A stretch of 64,000 nt of DNA from Pseudemcibacter aquimaris (GTDB lineage: Bacteria > Pseudomonadota > Alphaproteobacteria > Sphingomonadales > Emcibacteraceae), in NCBI RefSeq assembly GCF_028869115.1, contig NZ_CP079800.1, forward strand, positions 2,108,001-2,172,000. The letters run 5' to 3'. The notes below the pieces were generated by a model. It did no database searches. It saw nothing but the letters and a program-made list of their open reading frames with translations, and had not been told where the DNA came from. Position numbers and translations under genes: made by a program. This document shows positions 33,797 to 37,867 of this stretch, piece after piece (within the stretch, counting starts at the first letter, position 1; each line of letters starts with the position of its first letter).

Positions 33797-33851
33797 ATCC
33801 TAAATTCACGAAAAAGTGACTTTTCGTTGCTTGATGAAATCAAACATAAAG

Positions 33852-33886
33852 CCCTAGTATTTGATGATAAATGCTAGGGTATTTTT
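33852..33886 (+). terminator. Terminator hairpin that also contains the next gene's ribosome binding site
   Basis: CCCTAGTATTT pairs with AAATGCTAGGG around GATGAT (one G-U pair), followed by TATTTTT. It looks like the end of the pst-phoU transcript. The AGGG in the 3' arm (33876-33879) is also the only Shine-Dalgarno-like sequence for the ATG at 33887, seven bases away. The hairpin could therefore mask translation of that gene in read-through RNA. Confidence 0.7.
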
Positions 33887-34630
33887 ATGAGATCATTACA
33901 TTTTCTGCTTTGTTATATAGCACTTTTTTCCATATCAGTTTCACAGGAAACTGAAATCAAAACTGGTTCATATATTATCAACAGCACGACTACCGAAATT
34001 GCAGGACAAAATATTGCCACCACAAATCAGGCAATCATCCCCCATGACGAAAAGCTAACTTGGGAAATAACAGTCCCAGATAATTATTCATCAGAAAACC
34101 CACCAGGAATTCTTATCTACATAAGCCCCGAAAATGAGATCAACATCCCACGCGGATGGCTTGACATTACGAAGGAGAAAAACCTGATCTGGATCGCAGC
34201 GAGAAATTCAGGAAATGATATTTATACAATGAAACGCATCCTGCTTGCGATGACAGGCATTCAATACGTTCAAGACCGTTATAAATTAGATTTAAATAGA
34301 ATTTATATTACCGGTTTTTCCGGTGGCGGTCGCGTGGCCAGTATCATGGCAAGTCAAAACCCAAACATATTTAAAGGGGCCATTTATAACTGTGGGGTAA
34401 ATTTCTGGAATAACGTTAGTGATAATAATCTGGATATGATCAAAGAAAACCGATATGTATTTATTACTGGTTCAGAGGATTTTAATCTTAACGACACCAG
34501 ACAGGTTTATAGCAAATATAAAAAAGCTGGTGTATCAAGCGTTGACCTGATGGTAATACCGCGAATGGGGCATAGTAATCCAAGAAGCAGCAGGTTAAAA
34601 CGAGCTATTGAATTTCTGGACGGCTCTTGA
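33887..34630 (+). CDS. Secreted alpha/beta hydrolase, tandem family member 1 (catalytic residues kept)
   Basis: A 247-residue exported protein with a Sec signal peptide (about residues 1-20). It is the only one of five tandem paralogues (33887-37867) with a plausible triad: Ser145 in GFSGGG, Asp198 in GSEDFN and His229 in RMGHSNP. The core resembles small esterases of the polyhydroxybutyrate depolymerase/feruloyl esterase (LpqC-like) group. Shared family features are the STxxEIxGQ segment near 33, the W-x-V-P segment near 59-64, LIWIAARNSGN and the closing EFLD. The ribosome binding site lies in the terminator hairpin of phoU. Substrate unknown. Confidence 0.8.
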   Translation: MRSLHFLLCYIALFSISVSQETEIKTGSYIINSTTTEIAGQNIATTNQAIIPHDEKLTWEITVPDNYSSENPPGILIYISPENEINIPRGWLDITKEKNLIWIAARNSGNDIYTMKRILLAMTGIQYVQDRYKLDLNRIYITGFSGGGRVASIMASQNPNIFKGAIYNCGVNFWNNVSDNNLDMIKENRYVFITGSEDFNLNDTRQVYSKYKKAGVSSVDLMVIPRMGHSNPRSSRLKRAIEFLDGS

Positions 34631-34732
34631 TTTTTTACTATTTTCATGCAATTATTTAAATAAAGCAACTTAGAATATATATAATTAACCCTATAGTTGC
34701 ATAAATTTAAATAAAATCACCTCGAGATTGAT

Positions 34733-35446
34733 ATGATTATCAGAAACATCTTCATTCTGTTTTTATTGGGAATAACAACTGCTTTCGCCCAAACATCCAA
34801 AACAGGTGAATTCATTATCACATCTACTCCTGCTGAAATCCTTGGGCAGGACGCCGCGCAATATAATGATTATATTGCAACAGATGATAACATCTCTTGG
34901 GAAATTTACGTACCTGAAAATTATGACGCATCGAACCCTGCTGGTGTAATGGTTTATGCGGGTGCGCCGAATGATGTTCGCCCCCCTGTCGGCTGGTTAA
35001 GTGCGATGAAAGACAGCAACCTAATATGGGTCGCCGCAAGAAGATCAGGCAACGGGTCATCCATCCATCAGAAAAAATTACTCGCGATGCTATCTGTGCC
35101 GATGATCCAAAAAGAATATAATATCGACGACAGTCGAATTTATATTTCCGGCGAAGGTCGCACCGCCAGTAGAACCGCGCTTGAATACCCGGAAATGTTC
35201 AATGGCGCAATTTTGCTTGGTGGCAAGTTATGGGAAGATAATGCGGACGAAAAACTTAAAAAAGCCCTGAAAAACCGCTACGTATTTGTCACAAGAGAAA
35301 GACACATTGTTCCACAAGGAAACAGATACGCCTACAATAAATTTAAAGCCGCCGGTGTTGAAAACATCCAACTTCATTTCCTTAGAGGCAGGCAACGTTT
35401 CGACAGAAGAGATTTATTAAACTCGATTGAATATCTTGATCAATAG
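34733..35446 (+). CDS. Secreted alpha/beta-hydrolase-like pseudoenzyme, tandem family member 2
   Basis: A 237-residue exported protein (signal peptide ending TAFAQ) clearly related to member 1. The nucleophile elbow has changed to SGEGRTASR, with no Ser in the GxSxG position. The acid loop has become TRERHIVP and the region that should hold the His reads RGRQRFDRRD. All three catalytic positions are therefore lost while the fold-forming core (ISWEIYVPENYD, NLIWVAARRSGNG, RIYISG) is well kept. It is closest to member 3. This suggests a binding or structural role rather than hydrolysis. The 102-base upstream gap has no obvious terminator. Confidence 0.78.
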   Translation: MIIRNIFILFLLGITTAFAQTSKTGEFIITSTPAEILGQDAAQYNDYIATDDNISWEIYVPENYDASNPAGVMVYAGAPNDVRPPVGWLSAMKDSNLIWVAARRSGNGSSIHQKKLLAMLSVPMIQKEYNIDDSRIYISGEGRTASRTALEYPEMFNGAILLGGKLWEDNADEKLKKALKNRYVFVTRERHIVPQGNRYAYNKFKAAGVENIQLHFLRGRQRFDRRDLLNSIEYLDQ

Positions 35447-35510
35447 GAATAAAGTGGTATTTTCTTATAAATAAACATTCATTTTATTCTAAAAACTAAT
35501 TGGGGCCTTC

Positions 35511-36248
35511 GTGATTAAAAAATCTTTTGTTATTTTGATATTATTGTTGAGTACTGTTTCTGCAAATGCTCAAAAAACTGGTGAATATATATTAACCTCT
35601 ACACCTGAAGAAGTGCTAGGACATGATGCCGAGCAATTCAAAAACATTATTGATGCTAATGCCAATTTATCTTGGGAGGTATATGTACCCAAAAGATATA
35701 ACCCGGATAAACCGGCAGGGATAATGGTTTTTGCAGGCGCGCCAAATGATGTAAGACCGCCACGGGGTTGGTACAGTTCCATTGAAGATAAAAACTTAAT
35801 TTGGATCGCTCCAAGAAGATCAGGCAATGGATCAACAATTCAACAAAAAACGATGCTTGCAATGATGGCTGTTTTACAAATAACAAAAAGATACTCAATC
35901 AACCCTGATCGCATTTATATTTCTGGTGAACCTAGAATTGCGAGTAGAGCAGCTCTTAATTACCCCAATATATTTAAAGGTGCAATTTTCAGCAGTCTTA
36001 ATTACGGCGATAACAATGTCTGGGATGAGAACGCAGATGAGAAAATCCAAAACGCATTGGATAATAAATTTGTTTTTGTTTCTTCAAGCAAAACCAGAAT
36101 TCCACAAACAATTGGATATGCATATCATAAATTTGTAGAAGCTGGAGTTCGTAAAGTAGAATTTTTGTTACTTAACAGCCAAGGCCGTATTGTCGTTAGG
36201 TTTGATCGCCGTAGAATTTTAAAAGCAATTAACATGCTAGATCAATAA
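35511..36248 (+). CDS. Secreted alpha/beta-hydrolase-like pseudoenzyme, tandem family member 3
   Basis: A 245-residue exported protein (signal peptide ending SANAQ) most like member 2: both share AGAPNDVRPPxGW and RRSGNGS. The nucleophile elbow is SGEPRIASRAA, without Ser; the acid loop is SSSKTRIP and the last motif is GRIVVRFDRRR. So it also appears catalytically dead. Conservation of arginines (RRSGNG, FDRRR) in members 2 and 3 may mark an acidic ligand, which would be of interest next to phosphate genes, but this is inference. Confidence 0.78.
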   Translation: MIKKSFVILILLLSTVSANAQKTGEYILTSTPEEVLGHDAEQFKNIIDANANLSWEVYVPKRYNPDKPAGIMVFAGAPNDVRPPRGWYSSIEDKNLIWIAPRRSGNGSTIQQKTMLAMMAVLQITKRYSINPDRIYISGEPRIASRAALNYPNIFKGAIFSSLNYGDNNVWDENADEKIQNALDNKFVFVSSSKTRIPQTIGYAYHKFVEAGVRKVEFLLLNSQGRIVVRFDRRRILKAINMLDQ

Positions 36249-36266
36249 GTTATTGGAGACTTATAA

Positions 36267-37034
36267 ATGCTAAAACAAATATTCATTTTTTTATTTTTTC
36301 TTGTAAGCCAACCTGTACTTGCACAAGAAAGCGAAAGAAATTACCGAACTGGTGAATTTGACGTAAAAAGCACCATTGTGGACCTTCTGGGGGAAAAGAC
36401 AGCCAAATCATATGAACAAATCTTTGATGCAGATGAAGAATTGCTTTGGAACGTCTTTGTACCGGCCAATTTTACACCGGAAAACGCAGCTGGTGTAATT
36501 GTTTATTTCAGCGACAAATATCCAAACCAAGTTGAATCAGGCTGGAAAGGTGCCGCCGAAGAGAAAAATTTCATTTGGGTCTCCCCTAAAAGGGCAAGGA
36601 ATTTCACCAATAGAAAGAAACTATTGTTAGGTGTGCTTGCAACGCCCCTTATTGAATCATTATATCCAATCAATGGATCAAGGGTTTATGTTACAGGCGA
36701 CCGATCTGGTTGTGATTTGGCGAGTAACGCAGCAAGGATTTATCCGAATATATTCTCAGGCGCCATTTATAACAGCTGCAAGGCAGAAACCTGGAAGAAA
36801 GAATTGCCACCCGGCATCGACCTTATGAGAAAGCATAGATATGTCTTCATAGCCAGCGCACGCAGCGAAAACAACCGAGAAATCAGAAGATCTCTGATAA
36901 AATATAATAAATCCGGCATAGAAAATACACAGTTCAAGCTACTGTCATCACTTGATGGTAATGTGAAACTAAACAATAATCATATCAGAGATATAGTCGC
37001 ATACCTTGATGGCGATATTGAGTCAGTCAATTAA
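36267..37034 (+). CDS. Secreted alpha/beta-hydrolase-like pseudoenzyme, tandem family member 4
   Basis: A 255-residue exported protein (signal peptide ending PVLAQ). The elbow reads TGDRSGCDLAS: a Ser occurs, but one position away from GxSxG and followed by Gly-Cys. The acid loop is SARSENNR and no Gly-His is found near the C terminus. It shares with member 5 a cysteine pair (SGCD/DGCH and NSCK/ATCL) that could form a disulphide, and the phrase KHRYVFIAS/NNRYVFIAS. It begins 18 bases after member 3, with TTGGAG before the ATG, so these two are certainly co-transcribed. Confidence 0.77.
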   Translation: MLKQIFIFLFFLVSQPVLAQESERNYRTGEFDVKSTIVDLLGEKTAKSYEQIFDADEELLWNVFVPANFTPENAAGVIVYFSDKYPNQVESGWKGAAEEKNFIWVSPKRARNFTNRKKLLLGVLATPLIESLYPINGSRVYVTGDRSGCDLASNAARIYPNIFSGAIYNSCKAETWKKELPPGIDLMRKHRYVFIASARSENNREIRRSLIKYNKSGIENTQFKLLSSLDGNVKLNNNHIRDIVAYLDGDIESVN

Positions 37035-37114
37035 AGTATTTTTGAATGAGTTTATTTAAGATATGATATATGTAGAAATAAAATTACTGTTAAAAAAATG
37101 ATGGTTTCTAGAAG

Positions 37115-37867
37115 ATGATCAGCCGTATAATTATTGTCACAATATCACTCTTATATTCAAATTCCTTATTCGCTCAAGATGATAGAAGAGACATCACAGG
37201 ATATAAAGAATACACAAAATCAAGTGGGGAAATCATCGGCAATGATGCCATTCCATTTGAAGCTGTCCTTGCAACAGATGAACAGTATAAATGGTCCGTA
37301 TATATTCCAAAAGGATATGATAGTAGCAAACCACCTGGCATTCTTGTTCATATAACAGAGCGCAACCAGGCGAATATGCCATTTGGGTGGGAATCTGCCA
37401 TGGATGACAAGAACCTGATCTGGATTTCCATGAATAAAGTTGGACGTCTTCCGCAAAATAAGGAAATGTTATTAACCGTTCTTGCTGCGCCACTGATCGA
37501 AAGTCAGTACAGTATAAACCCTGACAGGGTTTATATTGCAGCATCAACAGATGGCTGTCATCCGGCCAGCGCGGCGATGCAGGTTTATCCAACTATCTTT
37601 AAGGGAGCAATTTATGCAACATGCCTTCCTATTAATTGGCGAAATGATACACCCGACACGATCGAACTGATGAGAAACAACAGATATGTTTTTATTGCCA
37701 GTAAAGAGCAGGATATCAGACAACAAATGAGACGGTCATACCGTAAATATACCAATTCAGATTTTGAAAATGTTGAATTTATAAACGTTCCCGACCTTAT
37801 TTACGGCAAAAGCATCAAACGACGCAGATTGTTAGACGCGATTGAAATCCTGGATTCCAGAGATTAA
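37115..37867 (+). CDS. Secreted alpha/beta-hydrolase-like pseudoenzyme, tandem family member 5
   Basis: A 250-residue exported protein (signal peptide ending SLFAQ). The elbow reads AASTDGCHPAS, not GxSxG; the acid loop is SKEQDIRQ and the C-terminal histidine is absent. It pairs with member 4 through the DGCH and ATCLP cysteines. The ribosome binding site is weak. It is the last of the array and ends ten bases before a convergent amidase gene. The five genes probably arose by repeated duplication, with members 2-3 and 4-5 as sister pairs. Confidence 0.75.
   Translation: MISRIIIVTISLLYSNSLFAQDDRRDITGYKEYTKSSGEIIGNDAIPFEAVLATDEQYKWSVYIPKGYDSSKPPGILVHITERNQANMPFGWESAMDDKNLIWISMNKVGRLPQNKEMLLTVLAAPLIESQYSINPDRVYIAASTDGCHPASAAMQVYPTIFKGAIYATCLPINWRNDTPDTIELMRNNRYVFIASKEQDIRQQMRRSYRKYTNSDFENVEFINVPDLIYGKSIKRRRLLDAIEILDSRD

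Follow-up and report, generated by a model that had tools for sequence, protein, structure and literature searches.

Introduction

Pseudoenzymes are homologues of enzymes that lack the conserved catalytic residues (PMC10211241). They are well studied in eukaryotes and far less so in bacteria. Neuroligins and NDRG proteins are non-catalytic alpha/beta-hydrolases. The gibberellin receptor GID1 arose from hormone-sensitive lipases through loss of the catalytic His and changes in the surroundings of the pocket (PMC3531792). All three are eukaryotic and in detail unrelated to the array described here, which resembles GID1 in that an alpha/beta-hydrolase has been kept after losing catalysis. GID1, however, retains the Ser and Asp, whereas in the array the nucleophile elbow is either deleted (P2 and P3) or re-used to place a Cys (P4 and P5). 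GID1 is the nearest functional parallel by analogy, not by membership. The nearest PDB relatives by both sequence and fold are the small secreted esterases of the PHB-depolymerase, feruloyl-esterase and Thermotoga EstA (3doh) type. Their fold is predicted for the whole array; their GxSxG nucleophile, GxxD acid and final His are shared by P1 only, while P2-P5 lack the triad. In the open papers searched we found nothing similar to a bacterial array of dead alpha/beta-hydrolases and no earlier description of this family. We describe such an array from the marine alphaproteobacterium Pseudemcibacter aquimaris, a well-preserved bacterial case of the pseudoenzyme phenomenon.

Results

Five tandem paralogues with predicted export signals

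The window analysed is a stretch of 64,000 nucleotides (contig NZ_CP079800.1, positions 2,108,001 to 2,172,000). A preliminary description, made from the letters alone, had proposed a tandem array of five secreted alpha/beta-hydrolase paralogues at 33887-37867, and five complete, co-directional ORFs of 237-255 codons are indeed found there on the plus strand: P1 (33887..34630, 247 aa), P2 (34733..35446, 237 aa), P3 (35511..36248, 245 aa, GTG start), P4 (36267..37034, 255 aa) and P5 (37115..37867, 250 aa). Intergenic gaps are 18-102 bp and no strong terminator was seen between the five genes. P2-P5 share 28-36% identity with P1, and 29 columns are invariant in the alignment of the five. The core motifs listed in the preliminary description are present approximately, with departures in P5 (RVYIAAS, lacking the Gly), P3 (NKFVF) and P4 (HRYVF). 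Read off the sequence, all five N-termini carry a hydrophobic signal sequence that ends in a typical AxA/SxS-Q site and lacks a lipobox Cys, and the proteins are predicted to be exported, P1 being secreted or periplasmic. Residues 122-178 of P1 match the Pfam family Peptidase_S9 (PF00326) with 40.9 bits against a gathering threshold of 22.6, and no Pfam family reached its cut-off in P2-P5. PHB-depolymerase thresholds were not reached either, with P1 scoring 18.1 against 23 bits for PF10503 and P2 20.1 against 150 bits for NF050058 (scl-PHA depolymerase, type 1); the latter gives weak, sub-threshold matches in 25 of 26 family members. The P. aquimaris genome (3.37 Mb, one contig) contains no clear member other than P1-P5, apart from two sub-threshold matches.

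P2-P5 have lost the catalytic triad in different ways

P1 possesses the nucleophile-acid-His triad and GxSxG elbow of an active enzyme, formed by GFSGG (S145, codon 34319-34321), GSED (D198) and MGHS (H229). All three residues are invariant in 12 of 12 P1-clade proteins from eleven genomes. P2-P5 do not possess this triad. In P2 and P3 the elbow is shorter by three residues, the Ser among them (ISG---EGR), a deletion found in every member of the P2 clade, where the Asp is replaced as well. At the Ser position P4 has Arg and P5 Thr; the Asp position is occupied by H, T, S and Q in P2, P3, P4 and P5, respectively, and the final His is missing from all four. Across the wider group formed by P4, P5 and a further dead clade, Y, the Ser position is R, Y, N, A, T or S, and the positions of the acid and the final His never read D and H. 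No complete Ser-Asp-His set is present in any member of the P2/P3 or P4/P5/Y clades. The preliminary description had reserved S145, D198 and H229 for the first member, with numbering that proved exact, and had members 2-5 losing Ser, acid and His differently, both of which agree with these findings. A His near its old place is still visible in some P2-clade relatives (G088 and G042) and missing in P2 and P3; this suggests that in the P2 clade the His drifted off after the Ser and Asp had been lost.

P4 carries an added C149 paired with C171, and P5 an added C148 paired with C170 (P5 numbering). In the P4/P5/Y clade, C148 is new and invariant, lies three residues past the old Ser position and occurs together with C169 in every member tabulated. 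The cysteines that had been proposed as a shared mark of P4 and P5 are therefore real, but C169 is also present in P1 and only C148 is new. P2 and P3 contain no Cys at all.

The inactive copies are older than the radiation of the genus

The group to which the relatives belong is recorded as Emcibacteraceae/Kordiimonadaceae (Alphaproteobacteria). Of 14 genomes in the genus, 11 encode members of the family and three lack it altogether. The recurrence of the array in relatives, proposed earlier as a check, was borne out: in most of them its site is flanked by the Porin_O_P/pst-phoU side and, at the other end, by mtnA and a secreted amidase. Most array genomes combine one P1 copy with at least one dead copy in a constant gene order. 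P2, P4 and P5 have orthologues at the same syntenic place in relatives within the genus. P2 orthologues occur in most relatives having an array, P4 orthologues in G082 and G046, and P5 orthologues in G058, G082, G088 and G064; G082 and G100 have identical contigs (C190 and C349), probably through contamination of one of the two draft genomes. Because these orthologues carry identical lesions, the sequences place inactivation before the radiation of the genus.

The tree supports the P2 clade (100/98), the P4/P5/Y clade (100/98), P5 (100/99) and P4 (100/99), and these clades hold several species. When it is rooted on distant active relatives, all dead sequences fall on one branch (89/79, which is not decisive), so that catalysis may have been lost only once. 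The sister relationship of P2 and P3 suggested in the preliminary description is compatible with the tree (77/96); P3 evolves faster than P2 and is probably a later duplicate of it. The second proposed pair, P4 and P5 as sisters by recent duplication, is rejected by an AU test (p-AU = 4.7e-6).

Beyond the genus, few genomes carry the family (8 others of 401 sampled from the order and 4 of 385 sampled from the class); it occurs there as a single copy, in most cases of the active type. Other Alphaproteobacteria (G039, G074, G089, G706 and G618) have a lone active relative that is homologous over nearly the full length and carries a P1-type triad. Unlike the array genus, they have no tandem dead copies, and among the genomes sampled tandem dead clades are found only in this genus. 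One genome of another alphaproteobacterial family (G490) encodes a minus-strand ORF (L103) with GFGGG, an independent replacement of Ser by Gly; the triad is retained in L106, a further copy from that genome. The Y clade occupies a separate conserved site (L089:8300-9671 and L087:4549-5938). In both genomes the neighbouring protein starts MVNFSPLKTVFTQTIARG and may be acetyltransferase-like.

Purifying selection maintains the inactive clades

Under GY codon models, in which identical proteins were counted once, omega is 0.026 for the active P1 clade and 0.015, 0.033, 0.029 and 0.030 for the dead clades P2, P4, P5 and Y, values that are inexact because synonymous sites are saturated (dS). An omega of 1 is rejected (2 delta lnL 207 to 771), costing 103-385 log-likelihood units in the dead clades. 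A plainer count agrees with the models: differences at third codon positions amount to 0.59-0.63 and those at second positions to 0.19-0.30. Between the window and relatives, dead P2 is 55-65% identical in full-length pairs (51% for one copy), active P1 51-56% and P5 49-51%. By this measure, conservation is higher in dead P2 than in active P1, and P5 comes close to P1.

Open reading frames are intact in 19 full-length dead copies. An in-frame TAG interrupts one P4 orthologue in a draft genome, and a P2-type copy, the second such copy in a draft genome, is split by an IS-like sequence at a contig end (L073:9220-9363). The latter has a near-identical counterpart (L075, from a different draft genome) that remains intact as far as its contig extends. 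These two broken copies and the three genus members without a copy indicate that the array is dispensable somewhere. The earlier proposal that the dead copies are kept intact is upheld by the low omega values, the rejection of neutrality and the lesions common to orthologues across the genus; frameshifts or relaxed selection in relatives had been named as the signs of decay, and the tally of intact and broken copies speaks against it. Since the triad has been lost while the genes are kept intact by selection genus-wide, P2-P5 are, judging from their sequences, probably proteins that have taken on a new, non-catalytic task and are not duplicates in decay.

The fold is predicted to be retained, and the old active-site face loses conservation in P4/Y and P5

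Structure prediction, a check proposed in the preliminary description, was run for P2 and P5. With input alignments that contained active paralogues, AlphaFold returned an alpha/beta-hydrolase fold for both (pLDDT 87.8 and 90.3). The best PDB matches of the two models are alpha/beta-hydrolases, namely the esterase 3doh, the S9 peptidase 4q1v and the esterase LC-Est1C (3wyd), with E about 1e-10 and TM (query) about 0.6 for the top matches. The assignment to the fold thus comes from models for P2 and P5 and from Pfam for P1, and P2-P5 are predicted to keep a P1-like fold. In the P2 model, strand 5 (131-141) runs directly into helix C (142-151), which fits the deletion of the elbow.

We compared conservation on the two faces of the fold, defining the active-site face as the loops at the C-terminal ends of the strands and the opposite face as the other loops, from secondary structure and not from coordinates. 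Both faces are about equally conserved in P1. Relative to P1, conservation in P4/Y shifts by -0.29 on the active-site face and +0.02 on the opposite face (p 0.0005), and in P5 by -0.14 and +0.05 (p 0.02); the shift between faces in the P2 clade is not significant (p 0.23). Because P4/Y and P5 lose conservation on the active-site face while the opposite face stays, the sequences indicate a constrained fold with an old active site that has not been preserved; it has either been reshaped to make other contacts or is just unconstrained. The loss of conservation could reflect relaxed constraint instead of a new binding site. A ligand pocket conserved in all dead members, for which the active-site face should be the most conserved, was rejected as the reverse was found. 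We also dropped a shared Arg-rich anion-binding pocket, since K+R on the active-site face rises only from 0.11 to 0.17 and net charges scatter.

The phosphate operon is a neighbour of the array in the window

In the window, Porin_O_P-pstS-pstC-pstA-pstB-phoU lies upstream on the same strand, and the array begins 90 bp downstream of phoU. Most relatives have, between phoU and the array, a tandem pair of AEC-type transporters (PF03547) oriented divergently on the other strand (e.g. L072:11840-13673). The window and G091 lack this pair at the site, and a 45% identical AEC homologue is encoded elsewhere in the P. aquimaris genome. The adjacency of phoU and the array in the window looks like the result of loss of the AEC pair. 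A terminator-like hairpin on the plus strand (33851..33880; 13 pairs then ATTTTT; -19.4 kcal/mol, z -5.3) lies between phoU and the start codon of P1. Hairpin and T tract (33851-33886) end at this start codon (33887), so that there is hardly space for a separate ribosome-binding site. The odd start or control of P1 translation may reflect recent deletion of the AEC pair. Seven relatives share a conserved motif, TCACGAAAATTTTAC, located 52-98 nt upstream of the array, with statistics that are biased because it was chosen from the same sequences; a weak copy with 3 mismatches is present in the window (33806..33820, plus strand) as a candidate control element. The motif may be the array's own control element.

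Two genomes, G100 and G064, have no phoU and still hold family members at the locus. A phoU-like gene was not found in the genus genomes G049, G032, G116, G064 and G100, four of which are more than 90% complete, and the high-affinity phosphate system has possibly been lost in part of the genus. The array lacks the stable linkage to pst-phoU expected of a Pho regulon member and is unlikely to be co-transcribed with it. Membership of the phosphate operon was rejected on synteny, on the absence of phoU in these two genomes and on the terminator, and the link to this operon drawn in the preliminary description is not supported.

Discussion

Residue loss and retention by selection, as read from the sequences, qualify P2-P5 as pseudoenzymes. 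With moderate confidence, we regard P1 as a small secreted or periplasmic serine esterase-like hydrolase and P2-P5 as ancient exported pseudoenzyme paralogues for which binding is the most likely mode of action. P1 would act as the hydrolase, and P2-P5, exported with a P1-like fold and incapable of the Ser-Asp-His mechanism, would be kept by purifying selection for a non-catalytic role. Binding of a ligand or of another protein would take place at the remodelled former active-site side and would not be alike in the P2 and P4/P5 clades, with the remaining fold serving as a stable carrier. In P4 and P5, the place of the nucleophile elbow as a structural clamp may have been taken by a probable C148-C169 disulfide. 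We infer this disulfide, the binding role and the binding site; a binding or sensing function of P2-P5 is plausible.

The pairing of one P1 with at least one dead copy in constant order in most array genomes would fit P2-P5 acting as regulatory or structural partners of P1, inactive subunits of hetero-oligomers that tune the active hydrolase, and heterodimers of pseudoenzyme and enzyme are a known mode (PMC10211241). Yet G064, which is 99% complete, keeps only a P5 orthologue, with pst, the amidase and P1 gone from the locus; G039 carries P1 alone; and dead copies also occur away from P1 (G088C106, G058C115 and G091C346). The first two cases argue against an obligate partnership or strict regulatory subunits, and we consider this explanation unlikely. 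A role in a phosphate-starvation system, in which the dead members would sense or bind phosphate compounds, draws on the position of the array just behind phoU on the same strand. The link is poor because the AEC pair intervenes in most relatives, two genomes without phoU keep the family and a strong terminator-like hairpin separates phoU from P1, and we give this explanation little credence.

The invariance of C148 close to the old Ser would suit a relocated active site, for example with a Cys nucleophile at 148 in P4 and P5, and migrated catalytic residues are known from other pseudoenzymes (PMC10211241). However, C148 occurs only together with C169, as would suit a disulfide-bonded pair in an oxidising compartment, the dead clades show no conserved acid/His pair, and P2 and P3 have no Cys; with the cysteines paired in one group and missing from the other, a shifted Cys active site is very improbable. 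That P2-P5 are decaying duplicates, preserved only briefly, might be read from the in-frame TAG, the IS-split copy and the faster evolution of P3. Neutrality is nevertheless rejected in each dead clade, the intact copies have persisted despite saturating synonymous divergence, and the lesions are common to orthologues of several species. For P2, P4 and P5 as clades decay is refuted on these points; it could still hold for P3 alone, and for the array as a whole we regard it as scarcely credible.

The preferred reading of P2-P5 as exported, non-catalytic binding proteins has a practical side, in that four of the five genes would be called hydrolases by homology or missed altogether by Pfam, which is a warning for annotation. 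More tentatively, P2-P5 might be genus-specific exported receptors or binding proteins derived from a secreted esterase. Following the loss of catalysis, two or more ancient lineages would have changed their former active-site face, one by elbow deletion and one by a Cys-clamped elbow, to suit different ligands or partners. If true, GID1 would have a bacterial counterpart in such an exported receptor family. In a small, genus-conserved locus that records intermediate steps, an active enzyme is found next to two ancient lineages of dead copies, and the fate of an alpha/beta-hydrolase after loss of hydrolysis is therefore directly testable.
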